DNA of 64,000 nt from Zygnema cylindricum (lineage: Eukaryota; Streptophyta; Zygnematophyceae; Zygnematales; Zygnemataceae): positions 186,001-250,000 of the forward strand of contig JBBHKE010002999.1 in NCBI GenBank assembly GCA_037447655.1. The letters run 5' to 3'. Under the pieces are notes generated by a model that was not told the DNA's origin, ran no database searches, and worked only from the letters and a program-made list of their open reading frames with translations. The first letter of the stretch is position 1. The number at the start of each line of letters is the position of its first letter. Positions 92 through 27,372 of this stretch are shown here, one piece after another. A program made the translations under genes and the position numbers.

Positions 92-92
92 G

Positions 93-2600: not shown

Positions 2601-3570
2601 GGTACAGATCAGATCGAGAAAATCCCAAATGTGAAACCCCTAGTATTAACTCCAACCGAAGCGGAAGACGTGGTGGAAATCAACCCGAAATCAAGGGATA
2701 CGAGAGAAGTAGACACTATTCGGAAGAATCCAAGAGAGCCATCTATTCCGGCAACCGAGTTTGAGGGAGGAAGTAGAAGCAACAAAAGATTGCAAGAGAG
2801 GCAAGTTAACAATAAGGTAACCAAACTGTCTCACCCCGATGAATATCAAACTTATAATGAGGCAATGACTTGTCCTGAGAGAAACCGATGGAAGACAACG
2901 ATTAATGAGGAGATGGTCTCAATCATCGCTGCCGATACATGGGAATAGATGGATTTTCCTCTTGACAAGAAGCCAATTGGGTGTAAGTGGGTATTTAAGT
3001 TGAAACTCAACCCGGATAACACCATTGAGCGCTACAAGGCTCGTTTAGTGACGAAGGGATTTACCCAAAAAGAGGGAATTGACTACGAGGAGACTTTTGC
3101 TTTGATCGTCAGGTTTCCTTCGGTTTGGATACTTCTCAGTATGGCGCAACAGAAGACATGGAAGTGCATCAAATGGACACCAATACGACCTTTTTACATG
3201 GAAAGTTGGACAAGTAAATTTTAATGCGACAGCCCGAACCATTTGTGGAGCAAGGGGAGAAAAACAAGGTATGCCGATTGATCAAATCTTTGTATGGGCT
3301 GAAACAGGCGCCCTGACAATGGAACAAGAAGCTCGATGAGTTTCTTACAGGTTTGGGATATGTTCACATTAACACAAATAACTCAATTTATATGTTTGAG
3401 GATGAGGAATGAATTATTTTTATTGCAATTTATGTTGATGATATGCTTGTTTTAAGTAAATCTATGGATAAAATAAATAAGTTGAAAAATGATCAAAAAG
3501 AAAGATTTGAGATGAAGGATATGGGAGAAGCAAGGTATATTTTGGGAATTTAGGTAGAGAGAGACAAAGA
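2601..3570 (+). pseudogene. Copia-A reverse transcriptase
   Basis: Ty1/copia RT (RVT_2 type). The N-terminal motif CKWVFKLKLNPDNTIERYKA lies at about 2983-3042, followed by GFTQKEGIDYEETF. The catalytic box YVDD is at 3431-3442. Stops at 2946, 3222, 3315, 3410 and 3551 and at least one frameshift break it. It copies element RNA into cDNA and sits between integrase and RNase H, which defines copia rather than gypsy order. Confidence 0.88.
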
Positions 3571-4378
3571 TAGAAAAATAATAAGATTAACTCAAAAAGA
3601 GGCCATTGGAAACATGTTAGAAAAAATCCAATTGGACAAGGCTAATAGTTGTACCACTACTATGGAATTAAAAAAGGGAAGTGAGGGGAGTGTGGAAGAG
3701 GGAGTTATAATCTTAGATGATGAAGTAGGCCTGGAAAAGAAAATATTTATGCAGACCATCCTTTATAGACAAGTAGTCGGCAGCCTAATATATTTCATCA
3801 ATTATACTCGTCCGGACATAGCCGTAGGTGTAAGAGTACTAAGTAGGAGTCTGAATGCTCCCACTAAGACAGATTGGGAGGCAGCTAAGAGAGTCATTAG
3901 ATATCTCATAGGGACTAGGGATCTATGGTTGCATTTGGGTGGGAACAATACTGACATCACCACTTGGAGTGATGCCAGCTATGGGGATGCTTCTATAAGG
4001 AGATGTACATCTGGATATGTATTGTATGTGAGTGACGGGGCTTGCTGCTCGAGCAGCAAGCAGCAAAAGGTCATTGCTCAGTCCACCATAGAGGTTGAGT
4101 ACATGGTTTCTTGCTCTACTGTAAAAGAATTAATGTGGGTCAAGTCTATGCTTGGTGAGCTTAGTCATCTTAAGAGTGGTGTCCAAAAAGTATTTTGTGA
4201 TAATCAGGATGCCATTGCCATTTCTGCCAATCCTAAACATCACTTTAAAGCCAAACACATAGACATTAGACTTAGCTTTGTTAGGGAGAAAGTAGAAAAC
4301 AAGATAATCAGTTTGGAGTATAAACTATATAGTGAAATGGTAGCAGATATGACAACCAAACCTGTGCCTTCCCCTTAA
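3571..4378 (+). pseudogene. Copia-A RNase H
   Basis: The copia-type RNase H region is open for 254 codons from about 3614. It has the TRPDIAVGVRVLSR connector, then TWSDASYGD, TSGYVLYVSDGA, CDNQDAIAISANP and KHIDIRLSFVREK, ending with VADMTTKPVPSP and TAA at 4378. It degrades the RNA strand after cDNA synthesis. This is the best-preserved part of Copia-A and serves as the reference for the Copia-B, Copia-C and Gypsy-M junction analysis. Confidence 0.88.
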
Positions 4379-4420
4379 CTAATTTTTTGCCGAGTGAAGT
4401 GTGGTCTTAAAATAAAGAGT

Positions 4421-9166: not shown

Positions 9167-9899
9167 ACATTGAAGGATCATATTCGGAAAATGAATCTGA
9201 GTCGGAGTCTAATGTTAACAGGGGGAAAAGAAAATTGGACATTAGGGATGACATTGGGGACATTGACATTGAATCTCAAAGTGTCAATTCCCGAATGTCC
9301 CTAGAATGTCGAAATTCTCAAAATTCTAAATCTAGTTTGCCGAGTGTAACTCAAATGGAACCGAATGTTGAAGAAGATGTTCAATTACGAAGGAGTATAA
9401 GAGATAAAAGAGGAAGGAAACCGACACGTTTGTTGTATGATAAAAAAAAAAGGAAATGCCGAAAATACTCACTACTTTATTTCGGCGGCAATAGAGGAGG
9501 ATTTCCTCCTCTAGCAATCACTTTGTGAAAATTCCGCCAGTTACCCTCAATCTTATACCAACACGAGAAATTGAGAAAAGATTGGGAGTCAAAATGGCAA
9601 CCAGCTTGGGAAAGAGAATTCAAGTCCATTGTTGAAAATCGTACATTCGAGGAAGTAGATTTACCGGAGGGGAAGAAGGCGAATGACGCGAAGTGGATCT
9701 CTAAGACCAAACGTGATGCTACTTGACAAGTGATTAAATACAAGGCTAAGCTAGTTTGCAAACGATTTCAGCAAAGGGAAGGAGTAGATTACACTGAGAC
9801 ATATGCATAGTGAAATTTGACTCATTACGGATAATTGTGGCGATCGAGCCAGCCAGTAAAAAGCACATCTATAAAATGGATGTGGAGACGACATTAGAG
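9167..9899 (+). pseudogene. Copia-D reverse transcriptase, truncated
   Basis: An acidic linker is followed by the RT N-terminus: ENRTFEEVDLPEGKK, KWISKTK, then AKLVCKRFQQREGVDY and ETYA. It ends at KMDVETT (about 9877-9897), the copia MDVxTAFLNG motif, where a (GAGGGA)n array begins. RT catalytic motifs, RNase H and the 3' LTR are missing. The array thus marks a deletion, an expansion or an insertion breakpoint inside the element. Confidence 0.8.
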
Positions 9900-10776
9900 A
9901 GGGGGAGAGGGAGAGGAAGGCAGCGTGGAACGGGGGGAGGGAGAGGGAGAGGGAGAGGGAGAGGGAGTGGGAGAGGGAGAGGGAGCGAGAGAGGGAGAGG
10001 GAGAGAGGTGTGAGCGAGGGAGAGGGAGAGGGTGGAGAAAAAGAGGGGGCCAAGGGAGAAAGAAGGGGTGCGAGGGAGAGAGAGGGGGGGAGGGAAAGGG
10101 GGAAAGAGGGGGCAAGGGTGAAGGAGAGGGAGAGGGAGAGGGAGAGGGATAGGGGGAGGGAGGAGACGAAAGAGAACGAGAGGGAGTGAGAAAGTGATGG
10201 AGATGGTCATCGAGAGGGAGAGGGAGAGGGGAAGGGTGATGGTGAGGGCGAGGGTTTGGGTGACGGAGAGGAACAGGGATAGGGAGAAGGAGAGGGAGAG
10301 GGAGAGGGAGAGGGAGACAGAGAGAGAGGGTGGGGGTGAGGGAGAGGGAGAGGGAGAGGGAGAGGGAAAGGGAGAGGGAGAGGGAGAGTAAGAGGGAGAG
10401 GGAGAGGAAGAGGGAGAGGGAGAGGTAGAAGGAGGGGGAGAGGTAGAGCGGGGTGAGGGAAAAAGAGAGGGAGAGGGAGGGAAGAGACAAATGAGAAGAA
10501 GAGGGAGTGAGAGAGCAATGGAGATGGTCACGGAGAGGGAGAGAGAGAGGGAGAGGGAGAGGGAGAGGGAGAGGGAGAGGGAGAGGGAGAGGGAGAGGGA
10601 GAGGGAGAGGGAGAGGGAGAGGGGAGGGGAGAGGGAGAAGAGAAGGAAAGGGAGAGGGTCAAAGAGAGGGAAAGGGAGAGGGAGTGGGAAAAGGAGAGAG
10701 AGGGAGAGTAAGAGAGAGAGGGAGAGGAAGAGGGAAAGAGAGAGGGAGAGGTAGAGGGAGGGGGAGAGGTAGAGTG
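9898..10776 (+). repeat. (GAGGGA)n polypurine microsatellite array
   Basis: About 880 bp of nearly pure purine on the plus strand, built from GAGGGA and GAGAGG units with scattered interruptions. Long open frames on both strands (Ser/Pro/Leu-rich or Arg/Glu/Gly-rich) are a by-product of the repeat. The same array resumes at 27373 and again at 32495 on the far sides of Copia-B and Copia-C. Confidence 0.95.
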
Positions 10777-10781
10777 GGGTG
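10777..10781. other. Copia-B target-site duplication (left)
   Basis: GGGTG directly abuts the left LTR. The same pentamer at 27373-27377 abuts the right LTR, which is the 5-bp duplication expected from a copia integrase. Confidence 0.8.
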
Positions 10782-11788
10782 TGTTGTTTTACAACCACCG
10801 TTGTAGGAGGAGAACCACCTGTAGTAGTGGAAGTAGACATTAAAACAACATAAAACTATCAAAACACCTACTCAACAGCCAACTTTGATCCAACACAGAA
10901 TATGACTCAAAAGGCCAATATGCCTCAACTTTTACACAACACAGTAAACTGACAATTCCCAAAATTGCAGCTCAAATGACCAAATAAACCATAAGATATG
11001 ATGTCTCAAAGTTTCCCAAAAACTGCCTTTCCAAATTCATATTCCAAAAACTGGATACTACAAAATTGGCTCTGTCTTAAGTTATATACTCACAGTGTGT
11101 ATCTATTGGTCTACACTAATTTGGGTAACTTTTACTGTTGTTATTACCCTAACTAACGACATTGTATCCTACCTGTACGTTACAGTACCGTTATTACATC
11201 AAAAATCCTAATTACTATTTTCCAAAAACCTAATTAATGGAACACTATATTTTATTACACTAAACTACAAAACAATGTTTATTCAGATATTTTTAGATGT
11301 CAAACGGTACACAAAGCGTTCCAGATGCTTAGTCAACGGTAGTCGCTAAATTCCAGCCAACCGTGGTTGAGTAGTAAGAAGCACCTAAGTGCTTTGTCAC
11401 TTGTTGTCCCACGTGAATCACGCTTGTGGTCCCTCGTGAATCACGCTTTTGGTCCTAGATGAATCGCGTCCATTGGAACCAATTCAATCGACGATGGTAC
11501 CGTCGAACCGTACCATATATTTGCAAAATACCCAGTTCAAATTCCGTTCGTCTGATCCGGTGAATCTAATCTTCAATTGCGTGACACGTGTGGCTGACTC
11601 TCAACGCCACTATGTAAACCTTGCATACGTTCTCTTGCCGACACGTGTCCTTCTAAAATTAAAATATACTCTATTGTACTTTTGCTACTCTAACACTAAT
11701 TAAGGTAAGTATTACAGCAGACAACTTCAAAAATATTCTAAGTTATTTTAGCCCTATCTACTGAAATAAATATTTCTAAATTACAACA
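10782..11788 (-). repeat. Copia-B 3' LTR
   Basis: About 1,007 bp. On the minus strand it begins TGTTGTAATTTAG and ends ACAACA, with perfect 6-bp inverted termini. It matches 26365-27372 throughout. The terminal 60 bp can be read as the start of an open frame (MSTSTTTGGSPP), which also exists in the 5' LTR and continues there into gag. Adjacent sequence is polypurine array on one side and the Copia-B polypurine tract on the other. Confidence 0.9.
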
Positions 11789-11972
11789 CTCCCCTAAATT
11801 TTTAGACTCAATTACTCACTTACTCCAATAGCATCTCTACAAAACTAAAACTTAGAAGCAGGAAGGGCTTTTGTTAACATGTCGGCCACCATCTTCTTTT
11901 CCAGTAAATAACACAATTTAACAACTTTTGCAAGTATTTTTTCTCTAATAAAGTGAAGTCTAACATCCATGT
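11789..11972 (-). pseudogene. Copia-B RNase H C-terminus and polypurine tract
   Basis: On the minus strand this reads MDVRLHFIREK, then KKMVADMLTKALPASKF and a stop, the standard end of copia RNase H. An AAATTTAGGGGAG polypurine tract follows, abutting the LTR. The 5' continuation of this frame (ending NSKH) is 10.4 kb away at about 22410, because Gypsy-M is inserted between the two codon blocks. Confidence 0.9.
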
Positions 11973-12922
11973 TGTCATGCCGCAAGACGTCGGCGAGTAT
12001 TATAGTGGATTCTTATACTAATTGGGGTATAAGGGAATATTACAGGTCGGTGGCGGAGTGTTCAGTTGAAGATACGGACAGAACTGAGGTCGTACCATGT
12101 TACCAGCATGAAATCAGATTGCGGTACGACATCGAATTTCGCGAATTTGAACGGCTCCAAGCTTGATATCTTATGGAATCAAACGGTTACATACCTGACA
12201 CATGTCCAAGTTGTGAACCCTTGGAGGTTCATGCATTATTTTTGTAGCATAGGGAGGGTTTTCATCCTCGCGGTGTAGATGTAAGGCTTCTCGAGGCGGC
12301 CATGTAGCGGCCACCTCTAGAAACTGGCAGCGTTTGTACATAAAAAGTTGCTTGCTCAGAGACATATAGAAATTAGTGTAGCTGTACGATAGGCGACAAC
12401 AAAGGATAAAGGCCATATGGCCGCTTAGGATTAGTTGCAAATTACAGCACGAGAATCCAACATTGGAGAGTTGTCGTTTTCTGGCAATCTACATTCTCGG
12501 GATTTGTCGAACCTTTTTTTGGTTTTCAGTTAGCATTCCACTGCGATATATTTAGTATTGGTTGGTTGTTGAGTTAGGGTTTCTCTTTCTGTATCCTTAG
12601 TCTCTGGCTAGCTTTGTCTCTCAGCTTTCCTGAGCTCTCTTTTCTGTACTAAGTCCTTACCTAATCTACCGGCGCAAGCGAGCTTGCAAGGTTTTCCTCC
12701 AGACTGTGTCTCACTTGTCATGCTCTGCGAATTCTGGAGTGTGAATCTTGTGTGTATTATCGTTGTTGCGTGGTTTCTGTCGTTTGTCTCCATTTTTTTT
12801 AGACTTTGGGAGTGCCAGTTTTCTTGGAGGTCTCATCTGGTTAAGGAGAGTCTGTTTTTTGCTTGTTGGACTCTTGTAGGGAATATTGAAGACTTCACGG
12901 CCTAGTGGCTACTGTCGCAAAT
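11973..12922 (+). repeat. Gypsy-M 5' LTR, lacking its last about 215 bp
   Basis: A block of 950 bp is closely repeated at 21242-22190. It begins TGTCATGCCGCAAG and ends TGTCGCAAAT. The right-hand LTR continues for another 215 bp (22191-22405), which this copy lacks. That missing segment instead appears just before the 3' LTR at 21015-21239. Small open frames inside are not supported as genes. Confidence 0.88.
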
Positions 12923-13936
12923 ATTCTCGTGCTATAATTTGTCTTTCTTTTTAAGTCAAGCATTGATTAGTTGTTTTGTTTTCTTTCCAGTCTAGTTTCT
13001 TTCTTTGGATTACTCTAATTTGTTTTCATTCTCAATTTTTTAGGGTTTCATTGCTTGGTGGGCTGTGAGTTGGATATTGTTGATTTTATCTGTAAATCCG
13101 GTATAGTTTTTATTTCTATCTATCTATCGGATTAACTCACTCAGAAAACCTAGCAAACCTAAAAAATTATAAAAAAAAAATATCCATATTAAAAACCCAG
13201 AAAATGTATATATATATATATACATTTAAACATATATAAATTAGCTTGCACGAATTATCATTTAAAATTATAACTGCTTTTATAATTGGGTAGAGAGTGG
13301 CTTAAAGCTGATACGCGTACCCTAACAGGCTACTAACTACTTTGGCATTGAGCTGTGGTGTAATTACGATAACTTGGAACTGGAGCATCGTTAGGGAATA
13401 TTTAAAATATCCTACTAGATGTTATTGCTTTAGGTGAGCAACCAATCCTTGTGGGTGCAGGCGCGATATAGGTTATCAAGCCACTCGTTTAGAGGGTTAA
13501 ATATCTTGCCGAAGGCTGCGTTTTCCCTTCGCCTAGGACATCATCGTTGCATGGTCTTAGATCTGACCTTGATCGGTCTTGATTAAAAGTTTCTTGCTTT
13601 ATTACATCTGGCTGTGTTGGCCCTGAATAGTTTCCTGCTTTATTACATCTGGTCGTGTTGGCCCTGAACAGTTTCTTTCTTTATTACATCTGGTCGTGGT
13701 GGCCCTGAATAGTTTTTTGATTATTATATCTGGCTGCAAGTGGCCTTGCATAGGTGACATGAGTTTGCTTGGAATGGCGTGACGTGAGTGAGATTGAAAA
13801 AGACAGTTTACGAATAGACTGACTCCGGTGATACAAGATAGACCGAATTGCGTGGCGTGTCTGGGTTGCGGTTATTAGCATACTTTTGTGTGTGTTCGGC
13901 ATTTAGCTGCATCCGGATAGGACCATCTGTTGTTAC
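12923..13936 (+). other. Gypsy-M leader
   Basis: About 1 kb lies between the LTR and the gag ATG. No convincing tRNA primer-binding site is visible next to the LTR end. The region holds a short (TA)n run near 13209-13222 and a 41-bp tandem repeat near its end. I see no coding sequence. Confidence 0.6.
13588..13751 (+). repeat. Four-copy 41-bp tandem repeat in the Gypsy-M leader
   Basis: Units start at 13588, 13629, 13670 and 13711, each containing TTATTACATCTGG, then a variable TCGTGTTGG and GGCCCTGAAT core. The first three are near-identical and the fourth is degraded. Position in the leader suggests an RNA-level role such as packaging or translation, but this is inference. Confidence 0.85.
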
Positions 13937-15400
13937 ATGCCAACGGAATGGAATAATTTACAGTTCTTGGCTGGTACCACCAAAAGCTCAGGTGCTTACC
14001 GGGGGCCGCCCAGAGAATTGATTACAGCCGGCTCCCCTCCTATACCTTTTCTAAACTCAGCAGTTCATTCTCCATTTTTAGGATCATCCTGTCAGTGGAG
14101 ATCTGGTCTTTCTTCTATCCATAGATCTACGTTCTCTGTTTTTTCATCTTTCACCCATAGTTCGAGGGAAGATTCAGACACCGACTCGCTTGACATACAG
14201 GGTCTAAGTTTACCGCCGTCAATTTTCTCATTGGGCAGTACCATACACACTAATCACAGTCCTTTCAGCATGGACATGGCCTCGTCCATTGACACCGGAA
14301 ATGGTAAACATCATTTATGTTTTTCAGGTCTGAAAGACACCATGTCTTTGTCCCACTTTCGCATGCTTTTCAATACAAAAATGCGTGACCTTGCGTTTCG
14401 GTACCAAGACTGTTACGATCTGCGGGTCGCTTTTTCTTTGCTAGGGAGATACCTCAGAGGATTTGCCCTATCTCTTTATACACGGAAATATGAGGAAATT
14501 TGTGGTATGACTGAAATAGCACCCGCCTATTCCGGAGCGTTAGCCATAATTGGCAGCCCCGAAATTCCTTTCCAACCCCCTGTCTTGGCAGTTTATGACT
14601 CCACAGGCAACGAAGTTTCACCTGAAATACCTGAGGTCCCTCATCAATTTGCAATGGCAGCTAGGGCTGCAATTCTGGCTAGACCGGTTATGCTAGTCCC
14701 TTTAAAAGATCTAATCTCGTTAATTTTTTATTTATTACATGACGAGTATCGAATGCAGAATCTTGACCAAGTCAAAGAGTTAATTAATTTTGAACGTAGA
14801 CTTGGTGAAACAGCCCCGGCATTGCGGTCACGTATGGAAACTTTGCGTGAAGCCTTACCGGATCTCATGTGAGGGGCTGAGGCGGTACAAAAATTTGTGG
14901 GTCAGTTTCTCACATAATCTCGACGGTTCATTCAGAACTGTCTGACTGAAGCATATGGCCTTAAATTAACTTTCGAGCAGGCTGCAGAGTATGGTGTGAA
15001 GTACGAAATGCAGACCAGCTGGTGGGACGCTCACGAGCAGCGGAAACCTTCATCTCAAGATTACCCTAATCCAAATCCTAACTATAATCCTAACCCGCGC
15101 AACCCATGGCCCAACCCAAGACTCCCAACAAGGGCCCCCGCCATGGGATCGTTACCAACGTCGCCTAGTGTGTTAATATGTTTCCGGTGCGGTCACGGTG
15201 GTCACGACGCACGCGGCTGTCCAGACAAGGCAGCCACGTGTACTCACTGCAATCAAACAGGTCATTACGTACAGCAATGTCATATTAAAAATCCGGATTT
15301 CAGTTATCAAAATCAAATTAAAAACGTTGGTATACTTGCTCGCTCGGCTAAATTGTCACTCCATGGAAAGGGGAAGAGAATGACTCTCCCACCAAAATCA
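13937..15400 (+). pseudogene. Gypsy-M gag
   Basis: Gag starts at ATG 13937 and reads in one frame to about 15400, with in-frame stops at 14870-14872 (CGA to TGA is plausible) and about 14918 (TAA). The N-terminal 110 residues are Ser/Pro-rich. A capsid-like helical region lies at about 14330-14990. A Pro/Asn-rich linker follows, then two intact zinc knuckles, CFRCGHGGHDARGCP (about 15180) and CTHCNQTGHYVQQCH (about 15241). Gag binds element RNA. Two knuckles in tandem are unlike the single-knuckle copia gags in this window. Confidence 0.88.
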
Positions 15401-16378
15401 GTGGGAGGGACCGAGATAGAGCAGAGATGCAGGCAACCATGGCAGCCATGGCAGCCATGATGAAGGAGCAGTTTGCCGCGCTAATGGCGCAGGTCAAACT
15501 GCAATTAACTGGAATGGCCCGTAGCGTAGTCCATATGCCCTCTTTTGCCGGGCGATCTCTCACAAAGTCAACTGTCCAACAGCGGGCAGCCCTTTTCAAA
15601 GGGACTCTCGATCATAATTGTGAGTTTAAATCCATTAACACTCGCATACCATTATCTTTCGCTAAAGAACCTAAAACCCTTATCCGGGAAACAGCCTCTG
15701 GCATCACCGCTGAGGCCTTAACCATTCTAGAAGGGAGTATATAAGATGCTTATAAGGTCAAGGAACAATTAGCAATACTGTCCATTATGCTTCCCGAACC
15801 AAATAGTGAGGCTAAATCCTCAAATCTAAAGAAATCTGCAAATGCATTACCAGCGCTTCAAAACCATCGTAGTACCCTATCTCTTCAAGCAATTACTCTT
15901 GAAGAGCGTTCCAGTCTTACTCCACACATTAGTTTTCTGGATAACAAGTTAGGTGTGTTCACAGTTAATGGGGTAGCCCAAGCTGTACCTCTCATGGACA
16001 CAGGGGCGAAACCCATTATTCTTATATCAGATTTTGCCAAGAAAATAGGTCTTAGTGCAGATACAGTACAACCCACTACCACACGTTTGTTGACTTCCGC
16101 AGGAACCACAAAACCAGTCTTAGGTATGACAAAAAAACCACTATGTTCTCAGTTTCAGTGTCAATCGTAATCCGATTTTTGCAGAAATATACGTTCACGC
16201 CTTGGTCACCAAGTGTAGTGATTATGAGTGCTTGGTCGGCCAAGACTTCATTTTCTGAGTAGGGGGGGGGGTTGATATGTATGATCAAACATTTTCGTAC
16301 AGACCAAACAATTTTCCAAACCGCAAAGTTTGCTTACCTCTTATCTCGGCCCGGCAACCCATGCCTACTATGGCTTAG
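15401..16378 (+). pseudogene. Gypsy-M linker and aspartic protease
   Basis: The frame switches near 15400 and then runs to about 16140 with one stop at 15742. A Met/Ala-rich helical linker (15427-15500) precedes the retropepsin, whose active site reads LMDTGAKPIILI (about 15990-16026). A frameshift near 16135 is followed by the flap and dimer region YECLVGQDFIF (about 16230-16256), then a stop. The protease would cleave the Gag-Pol-methyltransferase precursor. Its position directly upstream of the methyltransferase implies the extra enzyme was made as part of Pol. Confidence 0.85.
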
Positions 16379-17682
16379 TCGGCATTTGTCTTACCAGCCA
16401 ATGCTACAGTTGGCATGGGTGCTGATATTCTTGAATCTTTAAAAGCGCAAGAAATCTTACCAGACCCCTCCGGAATACCGAAATTATTTGGCACCCCAGG
16501 TTTTATTATTGACTGGATAGATTTTAACAGATTGTATAAGTTCACTGTACCGTATCCTTTATCCACTATTCCAGATCCACCCGCTATTGCCATGGATCCT
16601 TCCGGGTTTCCCCTCATTTAATGGAAACCAGTCAGCTTACAACGTAACCCGGACATTCTCGTTATCTTAGACCTTTTTGCAGGTATATGTACCACACTTC
16701 TCTCTTGCCTTAGGAACAGTATTCTAATCAAGCAATATTATTCTGTAGATATTGACCCTTTGGCTAGACGCGCTCAGTTGCATCACTGTCAAATCTTACG
16801 TGAAGAATACCCTCACCTCTTACCGCAGTCTGCTTTTCACAACATGCATTCAGCTTTACCACAGGATATCCGTCTGATGGGTAATCATTATTTGGCGGAG
16901 TTAGAACCAATCGACCTCCTTTTCGCATGTTGGGAATGTCAAGGTAAGTCTAGAGTCCGGAAGGGTTTAGGTCTAGCGGATCCGCGCACTAAACTGTTCT
17001 TTGAGGTAGTAAGTCTTATGTATTTCTTTCAGTCACTTACCGTCCCTTTCGATACGTCTTAGAAAACATCGCAGCTCATAATGACCTCCGACCCACAGTT
17101 CTCGCAAACTACAAACTTATTCAATCATTAATTGGACCGCCACTAATACTCAATGCCGCACACCATGGGTCGTTGGCCCACCGGGTTCGTTCCAAGTGGA
17201 GAAATCTGGTGGGCATATGCTGGCTCCGAGAAGCTAACCTAGCTGTTCGACCACCTAAACTTTTCATCCATGAAGCACTTCTTCCATTTCATAAGGTTCA
17301 GACATGTGTCCAGACATACTATCCTCCTGCATTTTGTCTTAACATCCCTGGCCAGCCGTTACGTGCACTTCCTACACTAATCGCATATCCACACTCCCAT
17401 TGATATTCACATAACGGACCGTGTATGCTTCATAACACTCACACAGGCAATCTAGAAGAACCTACTGCTGCGGAGAGACAACTCCTCCTCTATTTCATTC
17501 CAGACACAACCGCTGCCCTAGGACTCACTGAGCTGCAGCGCTGCACCTTACTTGGTCGTTTTATGGATCCTCAGTCACTGTCATTTGTGTTAGGCATAGG
17601 GTTTGCAGCCGGTCGATACGCACAGAATCATCAGTCTCAATCCGTTGGGGGGGGGATACACCATTCAAAAACACTGCTCTAA
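16379..17682 (+). pseudogene. Cytosine-5 DNA methyltransferase domain in Gypsy-M pol
   Basis: About 330 residues of a C5-methyltransferase lie between protease and RT. In order: motif I DLFAGICT (16670, S-adenosylmethionine binding), acidic motif II in SVDIDPLARR (about 16745), motif IV FACWECQGKSR with catalytic Cys codon at 16937 and GLGLADPRTKLFF after it, motif VI YVLENI with its Glu codon at 17062, motif VIII AHRVRSKWRNL (17176-17208), target-recognition region, then PTAAERQLL (17461) and LLGRFMDPQSL (about 17548) for motifs IX/X. The A.R.R..W.NL form of motif VIII resembles DNMT3/DRM enzymes, while the usual PPCQ is WECQ. Stops at 16619 and 17401 and a frameshift near 17045 inactivate this copy. 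Upstream, 16379-16618 is a linker in the same frame. Family identification is firm because six motifs occur in order. Confidence 0.93.
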
Positions 17683-17900
17683 ATCCTCACCTTCTCTCCA
17701 GGGTACAACTTTTCAGCTCTCTCTTTTTCCTCATTCTGCCAAGTCTAACACAAATCACACTATTTCGTAGAACCTAGTCACATGAGTTGGTCCATCCCAT
17801 AATACACAGCGGCTAGATCTTCGATACCAGTACACGCAGTCCCACATTGGACAGCTGCATTTCTATCTAGAAGTTGGCATCATGCAGTCAATTGTTTCCA
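17683..17900 (+). other. Degraded linker between methyltransferase and RT
   Basis: Short disrupted frames continue the polyprotein but show no recognisable domain. A run of nine or ten G at about 17647-17655 just upstream may have slipped and shifted frame. Confidence 0.5.
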
Positions 17901-18980
17901 TCAGCCCCCAGTTGAGTATGAGCTGGGACAATCTTTAGTCGCGGATGAGCAGCTAGCATTTGCACAGGCAAAGGAAGCCATTACCATCAACGCACCTGAA
18001 AAACCAACATGGAAATTTGGGATGGGACTAACGAAACCGGAACATGAACTGTTAGACAGAGTCATAAACCAACACAAAGAGGCGTTCGCTTACTCCATGA
18101 AAGATCTAGGTCGACACACCACCTACAGAATGTCCATTGACCTAGAAGATGACAGACCCATATTCAAACCTAAGCATCGTCTATCAGAAACTGAATGGGA
18201 AGCAGTGGACAAACGATGCGCAGAGTTAGAAAATGCAGGACTGATTTATACATTAGACTCCACCTTTGCGGCGCCTACCGTCATGCCTCGTAAAAAAGAT
18301 GCAGAGGAGAATTTCACAGAGCGTCGCATGTGCGGGGACTATCGAGAACTGAATTCCCGTACAATCCAGGACCGACATCCAATGCCTTTGGCGGAGGACA
18401 TTTTTGATGACGTCGGAGAGGCTAAATATTTGAGCATTCTGGATCTACGACAAGGTTTTAACCAAATTGAAATAGAGGAAAAAGACCGACATAAGATGGC
18501 ATTTTAGGGAAGTGATGGGCGTTGGGAATGGTCAGTTATGCCCTTAGGCTTGAAAAATGCTGCGTATTTCAAAAGGTTATGTACTCAGTCTTAGGGGGAT
18601 GTAAGTTCCCCCGGTGTTACATTGACGATTTGATTATTGCTTTAGCCTCTATTGAGGAACACGTAGCCCATATAGAGTGGGTATTAAAGGAGTTGAAAAA
18701 GGTGGGTCTCAAATGCCACCCGGCCGAATGCATCTTCGGGGCTAAAGGGGTACCATATCTGGGGCATTTTATCTCCTCCGAGGGAATCACTCCTCTAGAA
18801 GCCAAGGTAGAAGCGATCAGTAAACTATCGGTCCCCACAGATTTAACGAGCTTGCGTGCATTCTTAGGTTTGGCTAATTATTATCGGAGGTTTGTTTCTG
18901 GGTTTAGCACGCTTGCATCCCCACTAAATGAACTCTTGAAAAAATCAGTGTCGTTTACATGAGGACCCCCGCACATTGAG
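17901..18980 (+). pseudogene. Gypsy-M reverse transcriptase
   Basis: Ty3/gypsy RT. The pre-RT segment is KPEHELLDRVINQHKEAF (about 18034). Then come FAAPTVMPRKKD, MCGDYRELNSRTIQDRHPMP, ILDLRQGFNQIEI (first catalytic Asp, about 18440) and the YIDD box at 18618-18629. The thumb/connection has FLGLANYYRRFVSGFS (about 18860-18907). Breaks are TAG at 18505, a frameshift near 18565 and TGA at 18960, where FTWG is expected so TGG became TGA. The RT type groups with gypsy elements, and the methyltransferase immediately precedes it. Confidence 0.9.
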
Positions 18981-19420
18981 GCATTTCAGGGATTAAAAAA
19001 GGCACTGTCCACCGCTCCCATTCTCCGTCCACCAAATCATAAGTTACCATTTTGCCTTCAAACACACTTTGGTAAGCCCGATATCGCTGCCATCCTAACT
19101 CAGCGTGAGCTTACAGGTGAGGAATATGTGGTGGCTTATGCAAGTCGAAGCAACAATCAAGGGGAGTCAAACTATAGTAGTTATGAGGGGGAGTGCCTGG
19201 CTGCAGTTTGGGGAATTGCGCATTTCCGCCATTACCTTTATGGCAAACCTTTTACGCTTCTTACTGACCATCAACCATTGCATTGGCTCATGACTAATGA
19301 CAAACTATCGGGCAAGTTAGCCCGCTGGGCTCTTATTTTGCAGGAATACGATATGGAGATCATTTATCGACCCGGGCTCCTCAGTTTGAATGTTGATGGT
19401 CTTTCCCGAAACCCCTTACC
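18981..19420 (+). pseudogene. Gypsy-M RNase H
   Basis: The gypsy RNase H shows FCLQTHFGK (about 19051), where the first catalytic Asp is His, then YASRSNNQGESNYSSYEGE (about 19137) with the catalytic Glu, and LLTDHQPLHWLM with Asp (about 19265). The tail is NVDGLSR, equivalent to the usual NxxADxLSR. It would remove RNA from the cDNA hybrid. The D-to-H change alone should inactivate it. Confidence 0.88.
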
Positions 19421-20640
19421 CAATTCTGCCGATGATAGAGAACGACAGGATTTTGATGACGAACCACTTGCATCGCTGTCTGCTGGAGCATATTTGGTCT
19501 ACAGTTTTTTGGGTCCCATTGTTCGCAATACTGAACACGATCCATGGTGGGACAGCGCTCTGGTCCTATTTTTATCCACCCTGTCCTTTCAAACATGCAC
19601 CACACCAGGAGAGGAGGAGCGTGTTCGTAAAAGAGCTCAAAATTACTTATGGATGGGAGGTTCTTTTATCCGTCTCCTCGCAGATGGAAGTCATCAGCAT
19701 GTTCCTCAGCCGACAGAACGCCTATCACTTATCGATCACATTCATATTGATGTGGGACATTATGGTACTAAACGGACTTTGAGTTTGGTACACGCACCTT
19801 ATGGGTGGTCAGGCATGCAGGCAAACGTTGTGGCCATGTTAGAAGGATGTAGCACATGTGACCAATTACGGACCTCCTTCTCTAACCGTCAGACTACACT
19901 TCAACCTTTGCCTATCCGAGGACTTTTCTACAGGTGGTTGTGTGATCGGTCTTTTTCCCGTCTCGCGAAGGGGCAAGCAATACCTCATGATCATGATCGA
20001 GAATTTCAGCAAATGGGTGGAAGTTGTGGCCCTCACGCACAAAACTGCCAAACTCACCACGGCTCCTTTCAAAGAGCATGTGCTCCTCCGATTTGGAGCT
20101 CCAACAGAAGTCCTTACGGACCAAGGGACCGAGTTCCGTGGGGAATTTCAGGAAATGCTAGATGAGGCATTGATCGATCACCGTCATACAAGTCGAGATC
20201 ATCCCCAGGCAGATGGTTTGGCAAAGAGGGTGGTGCAAACATTTAAGCGGGCTCTGCGTAAACATTGCTTGGAGAAACAGATTACTATGTGGGATGATCA
20301 TTAGGATATATTGTCATGGGTTATCGCATGTCTGTACAGGCCAACTTAGCAAATTTCAGTCTTTATTATGTGTTATTTGGTCGAGAGCCACTGCTCGGTA
20401 GAAATATACGGAAAGCGGCTAGTTTTCCTTTGCCGCTTATGTTTGATTCTCTTTTTTTGGAAGAACTAACTAACCGGGCTTTGCTTTTTGCTAGGGAAAT
20501 CCCAATGGCCTTTGAAAACTAGCAGATTGCTCAACATCGCGACTCCTTACGGTTTGCAACAACTCGCAGCGGCAGTTAGCGGCCACAACAAAAACCCTAT
20601 CGGGTGGGGGACAATGTATATTTGCGTCCGACAAACATTT
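19421..20640 (+). pseudogene. Gypsy-M integrase
   Basis: An HHCC zinc region spans about 19735-19865 (DHIHIDVGHYGTKRT, then GCSTCDQL). The catalytic core changes frame near 19925: CDRSF (first Asp region), then SKWVEVVALT, LTDQGTEF (second Asp, about 20116), and DGLAKRVVQTFKRAL where the catalytic Glu of the usual NG.AER motif is Lys (about 20224, consistent with GAG to AAG). FSLYYVLFGREPLL follows (about 20358). The C-terminal GDNVYLRPT region is near 20605-20635. This enzyme would insert the element. Confidence 0.88.
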
Positions 20641-21009
20641 GACACACTTGACATGGATGTCTCGTCTCTCATATTAAGGATCACCAAAATCGACTCCTAT
20701 GGATTATTAAGCCACAAGGGGGCCGACACGCGGACTTTAAGAGAACATTCGAAAAATTATGCTCCTTGCTACCTACCTGATCTCTCTCACATTATGGATC
20801 CGTGGCGGATGCCGATTACTGAGGCCACCGAGTGTCAGTTGTTTCGGCGTTCTGACGAAGAAACGTCGATGCTTCTCAGCGACTATTGCAATCTAGGATT
20901 TCACATGGAGTGCTTTGTCCCACCTTTGCACGCTATTTCGGCAAGACAGTGGTTTTGCCATGGATGTGGCCACCTACCGGCTTTCCTTCCCAGCTCCCCT
21001 GTAGGCTAA
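20641..21009 (+). pseudogene. Gypsy-M integrase C-terminus with PHD finger
   Basis: One open frame carries the integrase tail (LILRITKIDSYGLLS, then APCYLPDLSHIMDPW). After it comes a PHD-type C4HC3 finger: Cys 20833, Cys 20887, FHMEC with His 20902 and Cys 20911, VPPL, then WFCHGCG with Cys 20956 and 20965. Two expected zinc ligands are replaced (Phe at 20842, Ser at 20878), probably decay. PHD fingers read histone H3 tails in chromatin. At an integrase C-terminus it could direct insertion, as chromodomains do in chromoviruses. The stop is at 21007-21009, just before the terminal repeats. Confidence 0.82.
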
Positions 21010-21014
21010 TAAGC

Positions 21015-21239
21015 TTGGGGGGGGGGGGGAATTCCCTCCTTTTTCCCTCTCTACCTACCAAACTTGTCGTTGTACTATTATTCGTTTGTTTGTTTTCTTG
21101 AGCCGATTCATTAATATTTCTGATGTTATATATTCTTTGCCCTCTGGTTTTGGCATACATATATGCGGTCTATACATTTTTGGCAACGCTAATTGGGTGT
21201 GATGACTGTCATTTCACGGTTGTTTGCTCATGCACGACA
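21015..21239 (+). repeat. Displaced copy of the Gypsy-M LTR end
   Basis: It matches 22191-22405, the last part of the right LTR, but begins with an expanded 13-G run (21017-21029) where the other copy has three G. It ends CACGACA, then two bases (AC), then the start of the 3' LTR. It therefore looks like a tail-to-head LTR junction placed where the polypurine tract should be. Confidence 0.8.
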
Positions 21240-21241
21240 AC

Positions 21242-22405
21242 TATCATGTCGCAAGACGTCCGTGAGTATTATAGTGGATTCTTATACTAATTGGGGTATA
21301 AGGGAATATAACAGGTTAGTGGCGGAGTGTTCAGTTGAAGATACGGACGAAACTGAGGTCTTACCATGTTACCGACATGAAATCAGATTGCTGTACGGCA
21401 TCAGATTTCGCGAATTCGAACGGCTCCAAGCCTGATATCTTATGGAATCAAACGGTTACATACTTGACACATGTCGAAGTCGTGAACCCTCGGAGGTTCA
21501 TGCATTATTTTTGTAGCGTAGGGAGGGTTTTCATCCTCGCGGTGTAGATGTTAGGCTTCTCGAGGTGGCCATTTAGCGGCCACCTCTAGAAACTGGCAGC
21601 ATTTGTACATAAAAAGCTGCTTGCTCAGAGACATATAGAAATTAGTGTAGCTGTACGATAGGCGACAACATAGGATAAAAGCTATATGGCCGCGTAGGAT
21701 TAAATGCAAATTACAGCACGGGAATCCAACATTGGAGAGTTGTCCTTTTCTGGCAATCTACATTCTCGGGATTTGTCGAACCTCTTTTAAGTTTTCAGTT
21801 AGCATTCCTCTGCGATATATTTAGTATCGGTTGGTTGTTGAGTTAGGGTTTCTCTTTCTTGATCCTTAGTCTCTGGTTAGCTTTGTCTCTGAGCTTTCCT
21901 GAGCTCTCTTTTCTGTACTAAGTCCTTACCTAATCTACCGGCGCAAGCCAGCCTGCAAGGTTTCCCTCCAGACTGTGCCTCATTTGTCGTGCTCTGCGAA
22001 TTCTGGAGTGTGAATCTTGTGTGTATTATCGTTGTTGCGTGGTTTCTGTCGTTTGTCTCTTTTTTCTTTTGACTTTGGGAGTGCCGGTTTTCTCGGAGGT
22101 CTCATTCGGTTAAGGAGAGTTTGTTTTTTGCAGTTGGACTGTTGTAGGGAATATTGAAGACTTCAGGGCCTAGTGGCTACTGTCGCAAATTTGGGAATTC
22201 CATCCTTTTCCCCTCTCTACCTACGAAACTTGTAGTTGTACTTTTATATGTTTGTTTGTTTTCTTGAGCTGATTCATTAATATTTTTGATGTTATATATT
22301 CTTTGCCCTCTGGTTTTGGCATACATATGTGCAGTCGATACATTCTTGGCAACGCTAATTGGGTGTGATGCATGTCATTTCATGGTTGTATGCTCATGCA
22401 CGAAA
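21242..22405 (+). repeat. Gypsy-M 3' LTR
   Basis: About 1,164 bp. The first 949 bp match the 5' LTR (11973-12922). The last 215 bp (22191-22405) match 21015-21239. The right end abuts Copia-B RNase H at the target duplication ATGT. Confidence 0.85.
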
Positions 22406-23920
22406 ATGTGTTTGCTGTTAAAGTGATGGTTGGGGTTAGAGGTGATTGCTATGGTTGTCTGGTTGTTACACCAGATAGCTTGAGGAGCAATTTGCATATA
22501 CCCAAGTTCGTGTAAAATGGACTTGACCCATAATAGCTCCTACAGGGCGGAAGTTGCTGCCATATTTTTTGACCCCATTGTGGATTGATTTTTAACCTTT
22601 TGTAATTTGGTACTCTAGCAGCAAGTTCCATCTTTTATCTTTAGAACAAAGCCGGTCGTAGATTCCGGCATGGCATGTCTCTATAGGTAGCATCACTCCA
22701 CGTCTGTATTTTCACCTCTCATCCTCTGAGTATAAGCTAAAGATTTCGAGCACCTGCAAGATATCTCAACACCCTTTTTGCTGCTTCCCAATCTGCCTTT
22801 TTAGGATTCGACTTCTTCACAAGGCTCCCACAGCGGCTGCAATGTCGGGTCTCGTACAATTCATAAAGTATATAAGACTTCCAACTACTTGTCTATATGG
22901 CTTTGAAGCCATAAACTCTTCCTCCCTTGTCTCTAAACTCTCACAAACCATTATACCTGAGTCTGACACAATTCCTTCCGATTTTTTCCTAAATTCCATA
23001 GGAGTTAGAGATCCTTTCACATCTTTCATATCAAATTTTTCCAATATGTTACCTATTGTTTGTTTCTGAGTCAACATAATCAGCGTTTTGTTTCTGTCTC
23101 TTTGTACGTGTATACCTAAGATATACTTGGCCTCTCCGAGGTCCTTCATTTCAAACCTAGACCTTAAAGCTGTTTTAATGCGGTTTATTTCATTCATTGA
23201 CTTACTTATTAATAATAGATCATCCACATATACAGCAATGTAAAGTATCCCATCCTCCCCTTGTAGAACATATAGAGATTGATCTGAGCTAATTCTCTTA
23301 AAACTTAGCCCAATCAAAAACTCATCTAACTTCAAATTCCATTGTCTCGGGGCTTGTTTCAGCCCATACAAAGACTTCATCAATTTACACACCAATTCCT
23401 CCTTTCCTTATTCTACATCATATCAGGTTGTTTCATGTAGATGGTCTCTTCCAACTCTCCATTGAAGAAAGCACTTTTGACATCCATTTGATGTGTTTTC
23501 ATAATCTGTATAGCCGCTAAACTTAGCAAAATTCTGACAGTAGGAAATCTAACAACTGGAGAGAAGGTTTCTTCAAAATCAATACCTTTTTTTTTATTAT
23601 ACCCCTTGGCCACTAGTCTGGCCTTATACCTTTCAATAGTGCTTTCTGGGTTCAACTTCACCTTGAACACCTATTTGCTGCCGATGGCTTTTCTGCCTGG
23701 GAGGAAGATCCACCAGCTCCCACGTCTGTGCCACCATAATAGATTTCATTTCATCGTTTGCCACCTCGATCCAGTGATTTCTCTCGGGTGATGAAAAGGC
23801 CTCCTCAATTGTTAAAGGCTCCTCTGTAGCTGCAAAAAAAGCGAAGTGAAAGCTTGCTTGCAGACGGCTGCTAGATCTCTTTTCCCCCGTAAATTTTAAG
23901 GTTAAAATCGTCGACAACCT
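22406..23920 (-). pseudogene. Copia-B reverse transcriptase and RNase H (N-terminal part)
   Basis: Read right to left: the RT start (PERNHWIEVANDEM, then [15 protein letters not shown] at about 23610), a well-kept stretch from 23395 down to 22817 with LMKSLYGLKQAPRQWN and the YVDD box (near 23222), then TRPDIAAAVGAL, AAKRVLRYLAG, TWSDATY and NPNHHFNSKH at 22410. There Gypsy-M interrupts it, and the rest is at 11789-11972. Frameshifts near 23405, 23665 and 22817 and several RNase H stops are present. The YVDD segment is the best-kept enzyme fragment in Copia-B. Confidence 0.9.
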
Positions 23921-25160
23921 GTTATTTGACTACCTTGGCTGATCCGCGACCTGTTGTGGACGAGACGGTGTAAATGTTTGTTCCACGTGAGGTGCAACGT
24001 GTGGTGAAGCATCTTGTGAAGTCACTAAGGGAATTAAAGGAAGAGTAGTCCCACTTGGTTGTGGAAAGTAAACTAGCTGCGTATGGTGAAAGATGACATA
24101 TTCATGTTTTTCCTTTGCCAGTTTGTCTGGTAATTTAAAAGAGTTAACCAAATCTATCGCATCTTTAATCTGGATATTTCTAGAGATAACCACTTTATGT
24201 TTCTCAAATACAAAAACTCTATAACCTTTTGCATTATCATCATACCCCATGAAAATTCGCGGTAAGCCCTTAGTATCCATTTTCCATCTATTCTGTGAAG
24301 TATCTAGAATAAAACACTTGCTGCTAAAGATCTTAAAGTGACTAACATCAGGTTTCTCTCCTATCCAAAGCTCATAAGGTGTAGTGCTAACAGATCTAGA
24401 AGCAATTATGTTGTTAATATAAAAAGCACTGTTAAGTGCTTCAACCCAGAATTTTAGATCTAGCCCTTTATCTACAAGCATAGATCAAGAACTCTTTGTC
24501 ACTATCTTATTTAATCTCTCATAAACACCATTTTGTGTTGGTGTATATGGAATAGTTAGATTGTGGCTGATACCTTCATGAAGGATAAACCCTTCGAATT
24601 CCTTCGATTTGTATTTTTCCCCATTGTCCAATCTCAGCGCTAAGATTGGAACTCCATGAAGCTTTTCTGCCCACGCTTTGTAGTGTTTGAAGTGAGTAAA
24701 CACTTCACTTTTATGCTTCATGAAGTAAACTTTGGTGTACCTCGAGTAGTCATATGTGAATGTAACCATATAGTGGACGCCTGAAGCTGAAGCTACTTGA
24801 GAAGAACTGAGAACATAAGAATGTATTAGCTGCAGAACTTTCTCCGATCAGTGGTCTGTTTCATGTGGAAGCGGCAATTTGTGGATCTTGCCCAGTGAAC
24901 AACCATCACATGATTTTATAGGATAAGATCTAAGAGAAACTCCCGCAACTTTTCCCGAGTTCACCATTTTCTTAAGACTATCATAATTCATATGCCCTAA
25001 TCTTTTATACTACAACTCATTATCAGATTGGACACTAAAGTAGAGGACATCATTTTCTTTATATTCAGCCAAGCCCATCCGGTACATTTTGCTAGCATCT
25101 CTAGTTCCTGTTACTGCTAATTTCCCTTTCCTGCTAACAACTTGTCTAGCGTCTACCTCC
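23921..25160 (-). pseudogene. Copia-B integrase
   Basis: The zinc region shows KRLGHMNYDSLKKMV and CDGCSLGK (about 24900-24990). The core runs from 24769 to 24485 with LRLDNGEKY (Asp) and TPTQNGVYERLNK (catalytic Glu). The C-terminal part (24481-23930) has FWVEALNSAFYINN, GEKPDVSHFKIFSSKCF and IFMGYDDNAKGYRVF, typical copia. The expected first Asp reads as Ser (IHSYV). A stop separates the core from the C-terminal region at about 24483. Confidence 0.88.
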
Positions 25161-26364
25161 TTTTAGAACAACTTCAACCTTTACTCTCCACTAAGGATGT
25201 AGAAAAAAGATTTTTCTTAAAGTTTGGAACATACAAAACATTGTGAAGGCTTCTCTCTATCGCCTTTCCCCCCACATCTACCATCAAAGATACATCACCC
25301 GGAGCTGAGGTTTGAACACTCATGCCACAAGTATAGTAGATACTCTTTGGAGACGTTTGCTGGAGATTTGTAAAAGTTGCCCAGTTCCAACACATGTGGG
25401 CTGACGCTCCTATGTTCATGATCCATCGTGGATCCTTTGAACCCTCTATGACTGTCGCCATAGCAAATAACTCCGCTTCCTCTTGCTCATTGAAGCTTAG
25501 AGACTCATCTGCATCAATTGCAAAAGCTAAAAAAAAAGTATTTCCACAGGTTTGATTTCCAAAAAAACCTCTGTGATACTGGCTCTATAGCCAACCTGGC
25601 CAGTATAAACCTGTCTCATTAGCCTTTTTCAGTTTAGGATAATACCTGTATCCATAACCCTTCTCATAACAATAAAAACAAGTAGTAGAAGATGGCATAT
25701 TCTGTCTCTAATTAAACTGATTCTGATTTTGATTAAACTGACTCCTGTTCTGATTAACATAATTTCTTTTGTCAAAGTCTGTTGCAAAAGCTTCAACCTT
25801 TCCTTCTCCCTCAAGGAGCTTAGTATTAGTCTCTTCCTCCATTATAAGATTGTACGCTAACTTAAATACCCAGCTAGCTTTATAATGACTCTTTAGCTGA
25901 GCAGACATACCTTTCAAGCTACTAACGAGACCTCTAATAAGCAGAGTTATTTGTTGAAAATCAGGAAATGACCCCCTAGCAGAAGAGTGTGCATCAATAA
26001 GTGCACGAAAATTGTCACAATACCCGACCATATTTCCCTCAAGTATTTGTGTCCCCAAATTTTTCCTGCCACAAAAAGTCTCTCATGAACATTCGTTTTC
26101 TCAAAAGCATATTTCTGTAAAGTCCAAATCTCGCTCGCCTTCTTCATTTTCACTCGAGACATGACCAAATTTTCTGAAATACAAAGAATTAGATTGTTCC
26201 TTGCCATTGAATTCTTTTTCGCCCAAATTGGATCTTTGTCAACAAGGGAGCCATACAAGACCGCTAATAAGTCAACAGTTTCAAACAAGGATTCGACCAT
26301 CGGCGCCCAGTACGTATACTTTTGGCCATTCAAGATAGGAATTCTTGACGAAAGGCCCATAACG
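25161..26364 (-). pseudogene. Copia-B gag and protease
   Basis: Gag begins at the primer-binding site ATG (about 26361) with MGLSSRIPILNG, but the same frame is open upstream to an ATG at 26423 inside the LTR. UBN2 gag follows. The zinc knuckle at about 25640-25680 reads CFYCYEKGYGYRYYP, with the His and last Cys both changed to Tyr, each explained by one transition. The protease motif at about 25400 reads MNIGASAHMC, with active-site Asp changed to Asn and the next Ser changed to Ile. All of this indicates an old element. Confidence 0.85.
26349..26364 (-). other. Copia-B primer-binding site (half-tRNA type)
   Basis: On the minus strand CGTTATGGGCC directly follows the LTR end ACAACA. It matches the core TTATGGGCC complementary to the initiator tRNA-Met anticodon arm. 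Confidence 0.7.
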
Positions 26365-27372
26365 TGTTGTTCTACAACCACCGTTGCAGGAGGAGAACCA
26401 CCAGTAGTAGTGGAAGTAGACATTAAAACAACATAAAACTATCAAAACACCTACTCAACAGCCAACTTTGATCCAACACAGAATATGACTCAAAAGGCCA
26501 ATATGCCTCAAATTTGACACAACATAGTAAACTGACAATTCCCAAAATTGCAGCTCATATGACCCAATAAACCATAAGATATGATGTCCGGAAGTTTCCC
26601 AAAAACTGCCTTTAGAAAATCATATTCCCAAAACTCGATACTACAATATTGGCTAAGTCCTAAGTTATATACTCACACTGTGTATCTACTGGTCTACACT
26701 AATTTGGGTTACTGTTACTGCGGTTATTACCCTGACTAACGACACAGTATCCTACCTGTACGTTACAGAACCGTTATTACCTCAAAACCCCTAATTACTA
26801 TTTTCCAAAAACCTAATTAATGGAACACAATTTTTTTATTACACTAAACTACAAAATAATGTTTATTCAGATATTTTCAGATATCAAACGGTACACAAAG
26901 CGTTCTAGATGCTTAGTCAGCGGTAGTCGCTAAAGTCCAGCCAATTGTGGTCGAGTAGTACGAAGCACCTGAGTGCTTCGTCGCTTGTTGTCCCACGTGA
27001 ATCATGCTTGTGGTCCCTCGTGAATCACGCTTTTGTTCCTAGATGAATCGCGTCCATTGGAACAAATTCAATCGACGATGGTACCGTCGAACCGTACCAT
27101 ATATTTCTGGAATACCCGGTTCAGATTCTGTTCGTCCGATCTTGTGAATCCAATCTTGAATTGCGTGACATGTGTGGTTGACTCTCGGCGCCACTCCATA
27201 AAACGTGCATACGTTCTCTTGCCGACAGGTGTCCCTATAAAAGTAAAATATACTCTATTGTACTTTTGCTACTGTAACACTATTTAAGGTGAGTATTACA
27301 AGCAGACTATTTAGAAAATATTCTAAGTTATTTTAGCCCTATCTACGGAACACATAATTCTAAATTACAAGA
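26365..27372 (-). repeat. Copia-B 5' LTR
   Basis: It matches 10782-11788 along its length. The outer terminus reads TTACAAGA on the plus strand where the partner has TTACAACA, a one-base change. It is followed by the target duplication GGGTG (27373-27377) and resumed (GAGGGA)n. Confidence 0.9.

Follow-up and report, generated by a model that had tools for sequence, protein, structure and literature searches.

Why would transposons, which the host silences by DNA methylation, carry a methylation writer of their own? A natural setting for this question is offered by the 64,000-nucleotide stretch of the Zygnema cylindricum genome analyzed here, hereafter the window. It contains an old and decayed Ty3/gypsy element of 10,433 bp (11973–22405) with the direct repeat ATGT on both sides. 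Pieces of this element match Pfam families in the order zinc knuckle (weak), aspartyl protease (below cut-off), PF00145, RVT_1, RNase H, Integrase_H2C2, and PHD finger (table 1). The initial annotation had placed the motifs of a cytosine-5 DNA methyltransferase (MT), in order, between the protease and the reverse transcriptase (RT) of this element and in the same orientation, and both statements hold. The motifs follow one another on the plus strand within 16622–17682, and the RVT_1, RNase H, and integrase pieces that come after them (17803–20165) lie on the same strand as the protease piece and the MT. Searched alone, the N-terminal MT piece (16622–17059) matched PF00145 (DNA_methylase) with an E value of 2.2e-5 and 24.5 bits, above the cut-off of 22; the three other pieces of 16379–17682, each searched alone against Pfam, matched no family. 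The extent first proposed, 16379–17682, stands for its larger part: an MT is present, but 16379–16621 is a linker and the MT proper starts near 16655. In the window copy, the MT is broken by stops and one frameshift, and the other genes are broken too.

Table 1. Features of the Ty3/gypsy copy in the window, numbered from the first base of the window
Feature	Position	Strand	Evidence or remark
Left target-site duplication ATGT	11969..11972	.	Same four bases at 22406-22409; abuts the element
Repeat A1, outer left end TGTCATG	11973..12922	+	93.4% identical to A2 over 948 bp
A1 segment that would pair with the primer-binding region; presumed 5' end of the RNA / self-primer	12438..12456	+	18/19 bases complementary to 12923-12941
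Primer-binding region, directly after A1	12923..12941	+	Complementarity score 16.5, against at most 11.5 in 200 shuffles
gag region with zinc knuckle, broken	13907..15460	+	ORFs; zf-CCHC-type match below cut-off; 517/540 residues aligned to the intact copy
Aspartyl protease piece	15745..16170	+	Asp_protease_2 match under the cut-off (E 1.7e-4); 80% identical over 278 residues to its counterpart in the intact copy
Linker, protease to MT	16379..16621	+	No Pfam match; aligned in the frame of the intact copy
DNMT3-like C5-methyltransferase domain, broken	16622..17682	+	PF00145; alignment with the intact copy covers 438/460 residues at 78% identity
MT motifs DLFAG, VDID, WECQG, LENI, AHRVR, EPTAAER, LLGR	within 16622..17682	+	
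Reverse transcriptase and RNase H, broken	17803..19400	+	RVT_1, RT_RNaseH, RT_RNaseH_2
DDE integrase (H2C2 zinc-binding domain and core), broken	19401..20350	+	Integrase_H2C2; intact copies also match rve
C-terminal PHD finger of pol	20833..20970	+	PF00628 E 9.9e-7
Purine-rich / poly-G tract (polypurine tract), directly before B1	21006..21026	+	
Repeat B1	21027..21239	+	91.6% identical to B2 over 214 bp
B1-A2 junction	21236..21245	+	GACAACTATC in the window copy; GACAGCTGTC in 8 other copies
Repeat A2	21242..22190	+	
Repeat B2, outer right end	22191..22405	+	GCACGAAA in the window copy; GCACGACA in other copies
Right target-site duplication ATGT	22406..22409	.	

Taken alone, the window copy could be read as a host methyltransferase that landed once in a single gypsy element. 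A search of the 352.8-Mb assembly of the same genome with the MT piece gave 150 scored matches among 1107 candidates, all with E values of 1.8e-53 or better and with 57–100% identity. The search with PF00145 (123 scored matches of 782 candidates) yielded a third family, M3, besides subfamily M2 and subfamily M1, the one that includes the window copy. The number of matches and the shared position of the MT in the three groups rule out the one-off insertion, to which we leave practically no chance. Both conditions under which the initial annotation would have been refuted, no C5-methyltransferase profile match and absence of the segment from all other copies, were examined and do not hold. M1 and M2 are 77% identical in the MT and 86% in the RT, and the two subfamilies have little in common in their A and B repeats. 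M3 shares 41% MT identity and 48% RT identity with M1, its RT being 48–49% identical to those of M1 and M2. Its order of domains, protease-MT-RT-integrase-PHD, is the same, the PHD match falling below cut-off. With the RT before the integrase, an RT/RNase H of gypsy type, and a DDE integrase, these are Ty3/gypsy elements. Sequence comparison of the copies shows at least three subfamilies to have inherited the MT as part of the element. One M1 copy (C1344, locus L009) encodes a single frame of 2379 aa running from gag to the PHD finger, and its A1 and A2 repeats are 100% identical over 931 bp, which points to a recent insertion; C1407 is nearly identical to it across the parts that C1407 keeps. 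The enzyme is thus built into pol, as first proposed, but the element did not merely "once encode" it: other copies of the same genome still have the MT in frame.

Two features of Pol accompany the MT. At five of seven M3 loci (L039, L040, L041, L044, and L046), an in-frame TAG CAA TTC splits the protease and MT frames at the same place; the motif was not seen in the examined stretch of the two others. UAG-CAR-YYA is a leaky readthrough context, and the M3 motif is close to that type; this stop may reflect programmed readthrough. A PHD finger ends Pol in the window copy and in L009, L016, L019, and L052, at the position where chromoviruses have a chromodomain. It is possibly a reader of histone marks involved in target choice.

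Retrotransposon-borne DNMT3 is not confined to one alga. To the three subfamilies and the hundreds of candidate copies of this genome are added 33 metagenome relatives of the MT, among which proteins fuse it to an RT (P0012, P0014, and P0028), a protease (P0015), or an integrase zinc domain (P0022). In P0022 this zinc domain directly follows the MT with no RT between them, and the position of the MT within Pol may therefore differ in some relatives. A scan of viral contigs gave 77 pattern matches and no confirmed relative. A tblastn search of phages returned 108 records, the ten listed all having less than 30% identity and at most 65% query coverage.

What type of methyltransferase is this? 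Its membership of the C5 family rests on a PF00145 match above the curated cut-off and on motifs I, IV, VI, and VIII found in order in a 22-row motif table. An in-frame MT from an intact M1 copy of the same genome matched PF00145 at 1.7e-12 and DNMT3A at 1.8e-10, and the M3 MT alone matched DNMT3A in the PDB at 2.9e-14. With a profile of the MT family, the PDB matches were DNMT3A (1.6e-16), DRM (2.9e-8), HaeIII and HhaI (about 4e-6), and DNMT2 (0.02). This agrees with the DNMT3/DRM-like character that had been proposed, and the motif order I-IV-VI-VIII-IX-X is not rearranged, the rearranged order of DRM type being absent. None of the 52 PDB matches of the profile is a chain named DNMT1, and a DNMT1/CMT origin was rejected on this basis. 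The metagenome relative P0002 gave a weak fold model (mean pLDDT 51); all 50 matches listed for this model are DNMT3. On these profile and fold matches, the MT is of DNMT3 type, with DNMT1/CMT, DRM, DNMT2, and bacterial enzymes all more distant; the trees built here took in retroelement MT rows only. In sequence and in fold, it matches best the catalytic domains of DNMT3A and DNMT3B, with which it shares the unrearranged order of motifs I to X and, after motif VIII, a stretch of the FHKVQT/FSKVRT kind, as found in DNMT3A. It differs from them by a glutamate in place of proline before the catalytic cysteine in M1 and M2, by a wider spacing of motifs VIII and IX (by eye), and by its location within a gag-pol polyprotein. 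Separately, locus L045 (G000:C514:126680-126928) is a 100-aa exon of a chromomethylase-like host gene. It matches chain 4fsx_A, which we take to be maize chromomethylase, at 3.7e-29, and DNMT1 entries outside the small 4fsx_A group far more weakly, at 1.2e-12.

The catalytic dipeptide is EC in M1 and M2 (WECQ) and PC in M3 (WPCQ). To our knowledge, the proline before the catalytic cysteine is near-invariant in C5-methyltransferases, and its replacement by glutamate in M1 and M2 would fit an enzyme that modifies RNA, like Dnmt2, or that binds DNA without catalysis, WECQ marking a loss of DNA catalysis in these two subfamilies. However, the catalytic cysteine and the motif-VI glutamate are retained in all 22 copies tabulated, which were chosen as best matches or for long open frames, and DNMT3 heads the matches of the family, DNMT2 trailing by a wide margin. 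The two residues have also interchanged at least three times. In a tree of 36 MT rows (12 from the same genome and 24 metagenome proteins), glutamate and proline precede the cysteine in 18 rows each, with four changes, of which three are forced by well-supported branches. Among the 33 metagenome relatives, nine have glutamate and 15 proline within this lineage, one has aspartate (P0012), one of a distant type has proline (P0013), and seven do not match the pattern. We consider an RNA-directed or noncatalytic enzyme quite improbable. The EC dipeptide is a point of difference and does not bear on membership of the C5 family, M3 and many relatives keeping PC. This even distribution and the repeated changes also mean that WECQ does not mark one new lineage, as the initial annotation had suggested it might.

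Is the MT maintained by selection? In four M1 pairs, its dN/dS is 0.08 (C1344-L028), 0.15 (C1344-window copy), 0.21 (C1344-L020), and 0.22 (C1344-L021), and that of the RT in the same pairs ranges from 0.06 to 0.12; between M1 and M2, synonymous sites are saturated. Six close M2 pairs gave 0.40–0.63 for the MT and 0.26–0.85 for the RT, values that are based on few changes and partly on wrong-frame codons. Among the young M2 copies L016–L019, all four have a stop or a frameshift in the MT and two a disrupted RT, the other domains being mostly intact; some of the single-base gaps may be assembly errors. These disruptions and dN/dS values suggest that the MT may be dispensable in M2. As far as codon comparisons tell, M1 shows clear constraint on the MT, which is not proven for young M2 copies, so that the selection sought on the enzyme is found in one subfamily and not established in the other. 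The M2 copies would fit an MT captured once from a host DNMT3 and carried as a passenger or as a restraining domain, with no role in making or inserting DNA; it would be retained because it damps the element or is simply co-inherited. The presence in this genome of retroelements with no MT (copia and another gypsy element in the window, by eye) points the same way. Against this stand the low values in the four M1 pairs and the persistence of the MT both in M1, M2, and M3, despite the distance between the RT of M3 and those of the two others, and in metagenome proteins with RT, protease, or integrase domains. A passenger MT seems to us rather unlikely.

The repeats of these elements are unusual. 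Among the 11 copies with extended sequence (window, C1344, C1407, C829, C2573, C1915, C2577, C783, C232, C449, and C1374), eight have the layout A-coding-B-gc-A-B, which departs from the ordinary LTR-coding-LTR layout with integrase ends at the LTR ends. The three others are C1407, with no visible A1 and part of A2 missing, C783, which ends after the first B, and C2577, with no pair in the examined stretch. The identities of A1/A2 and B1/B2 are, respectively, 93.4 and 91.6% in the window copy, 100 and 99.6% in C1344, 99.6 and 99.5% in C829, 99.1 and 99.0% in C2573, 99.5 and 99.5% in C1915, 97.8 and 99.5% in C1374, 96.6 and 96.8% in C232, and 88.8 and 95.7% in C449. The two pairs thus track each other in most copies, less well in C449. 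The outer ends of the element are TG...CA. In five of the seven complete copies with both ends seen, an exact 4-bp target duplication is present (atgt, ttgg, aagg, ccct, and ccat), and none of 42 cross-pairings of the flanking 4-mers matches. C2573 has three of the four duplicated bases, and the M3 copy C1374 has no duplication (ccgt/gagg). This copy carries an extra B and looks rearranged: over C1374:15500-37000 (L053, L051, L044, L052, and L054), a second B is followed by about 3.7 kb and then by PPT-B-gc-A-B, and the copy is nested or recombined. The flanks of C783 (gggt/taat) show no duplication either.

The joint between B1 and A2 reads GACAGCTGTC, a 10-base palindrome (GACAgcTGTC), in eight of the nine copies seen, the exception being the window copy with GACAACTATC. 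A 23-base form of the joint, CATGCACGACANNTGTCATGCCG, occurs 182 times in the genome, and the reversed pattern used as control does not occur. The two free bases are GC at 69 of 100 places listed, and 27 of the 31 others differ by transitions only. As the joint contains CAGCTG, a symmetric CHG site, these transition-only changes may be traces of CHG methylation.

Priming signals lie at the edges of B-gc-A. In 7/7 copies and in all three families, a region that opens at the first base after A1 is complementary over 17–23 bases to a segment of A, with scores of 15.5–19.5 against 10.5–13 for the best of 200 shuffles per copy. The self-primer segments differ between families, M1-M2 cross scores being 6–10. 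Upstream of the segment by about 25–35 bases, TATA-like boxes are visible by eye in M1 and M3, none being obvious in M2. A poly-G or purine tract directly precedes B1 in 10/10 copies where this region is visible. Complementarity following A1 is the signature of self-priming described for Tf1/sushi elements (PMC4600332, PMC6317226).

With a polypurine tract before it and a primer site after it, B-gc-A would be the LTR of reverse transcription, and the TG/CA ends and target duplications suggest that the integrase acts between B and A, inside this LTR. We propose that reverse transcription is of the ordinary LTR kind and self-primed as in Tf1/sushi, the RNA 5' end corresponding to the A segment complementary to the primer region. 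The linear product, BgcA-coding-BgcA, would be closed to a two-LTR circle. The DDE integrase would then open one palindrome of the circle, GACA-gc-TGTC, giving A-coding-BgcA-B flanked by a duplication. A cut of both strands after GACA would produce recessed CA ends with a 2-base overhang, as does retroviral 3' processing. Closing the circle and opening it at one LTR joint would explain why the A2-B2 joint has few or no extra bases. The MT, made in Pol and thus near the new DNA, might methylate the cDNA or the circle before integration, which could protect it, let it pass as host DNA, or steer silencing. We prefer this role for the enzyme at modest odds. Altogether, we read the locus as a broken copy of a gypsy element with a DNMT3-type MT and a PHD finger, probably self-primed, integrating through a two-LTR circle, and perhaps methylating its cDNA or circle, this last part being the weaker one; we give the whole a probability of roughly 70%. 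If the circle is a true intermediate, an integrase that acts on a circle joint would deserve the attention of retrovirologists, to whom two-LTR circles count as dead ends. The DIRS-like repeats of Gypsy elements with an MT would also gain a testable account, in-LTR integrase sites combined with a two-LTR circle.

The same element, MT included, might instead form its repeats by a route like that of PAT and DIRS elements, in which the internal B-A joint templates a one-junction circle that is then inserted. A-coding-B-A-B is indeed the DIRS order as drawn in PMC5890265, also for the Klebsormidium nitens Gypsy-Dnmt3. The Pfam matches over the whole intact frame of C1344 include rve but no tyrosine recombinase, and an element of the tyrosine-recombinase kind was rejected for this reason. 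Moreover, the insertion of DIRS elements is described as occurring without target duplication (PMC3266345), whereas exact 4-bp duplications prevail here, and the polypurine and primer sites are at the B-gc-A edges, as in an ordinary LTR. We regard such a route as unlikely and retain integration through the two-LTR circle. Integration of this kind may also underlie the DIRS-like repeats described in K. nitens (PMC5890265, legend of fig. 4).

The base composition of the copies bears on the role of the enzyme. The observed/expected ratio of CpG is 0.88 in the intact M1 copy and 1.06–1.08 in three M2 copies; the flanks of C1344 give 1.02, the window 0.79, and a copia element nearby 0.50. CpG depletion was rejected as a sign of self-methylation, none being found in the four intact or near-intact copies, and lasting CpG self-methylation is thus unsupported by their CpG content. 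As in the initial annotation, self-methylation of the element DNA is no more than an inference.

Tf1/sushi elements and Tcn1 have ordinary LTRs and a chromodomain; the element described here differs by its PHD finger, its MT, and the location of the integrase sites within its LTR. It shares with them and with the plant Tcn1 chromoviruses a Ty3/gypsy pol and self-priming from a site complementary to the RNA 5' end (PMC6317226, PMC4600332). The closest known system is KnitGypsy-Dnmt3 of K. nitens, a Gypsy element with a Dnmt3 in Pol and DIRS-like repeats, under purifying selection with Ka/Ks < 0.2 (de Mendoza et al. 2018; PMC5890265). It provides the precedent that the initial annotation had mentioned for retrotransposon-borne methyltransferases, and the arrangement is not a new class: a Dnmt3 in a Gypsy Pol is already known. 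Compared by description, both are LTR Gypsy elements with a nonrearranged Dnmt3-type domain in the Pol frame, purifying selection, and DIRS-like repeats. Self-priming, TG/CA ends with target duplications, a palindromic joint, a PHD finger, and a WECQ box do not figure in the available description of the K. nitens element (PMC5890265). Within the open PMC literature, the self-primer, the in-LTR integrase sites with target duplications, the PHD finger beside the MT, the WECQ box, and the M3 stop appear to be new. Among the papers listed there, no other on a Gypsy-borne DNMT stood out beyond PMC5890265, nor any on integrase sites inside an LTR. That a self-primed LTR element with a two-LTR circle, a DDE integrase acting at an in-LTR palindrome, and its own DNMT3-type enzyme marking the free circle would represent a route undescribed before is a tentative proposal, which we hold to be somewhat doubtful.

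Like this element, SymbioDIRS-Dnmt3 and DIRS1-like elements have unusual repeats and encode a DNA methyltransferase in Pol; a circular intermediate, proposed in the case of DIRS1, would be a further parallel (PMC5890265; PMC3266345). They use a tyrosine recombinase, DIRS1-like insertion being without duplication in these accounts, whereas the present element has a DDE integrase and mostly 4-bp duplications. According to the same sources, the MT of DIRS1 type is Dam-like (N6-adenine; PMC5890265), and DIRS1-like elements pair an MT with the proposed circular intermediate, Ngaro and Viper being without MT (PMC3266345). If the circle route is true, element-borne DNA methyltransferases would be a recurrent companion of circle-making retroelements, with the Dam-like enzyme of DIRS1, the Dnmt3 of SymbioDIRS and of the K. 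nitens Gypsy, and the element described here. SymbioLINE elements, which carry a DNMT (PMC5890265), are an exception and do not fit a strict rule.

Other repeats are present in the window. Decayed Ty1/copia sequences were recognized by eye, from ORF translations, at 1–4400, 22700–26440 (minus strand), and 56994–57611 (minus strand), and other gypsy-type pieces, likewise by eye from translations, at 35472–36635 and 59503–60250, both on the minus strand. The region 38690–42002 holds a reverse-transcriptase element that bears a zinc finger and looks LINE-like by eye; part of it, near its end, is masked (X). A long purine-rich repeat array at 9862–10800 gives rise to spurious Ser/Pro/Leu-rich frames.
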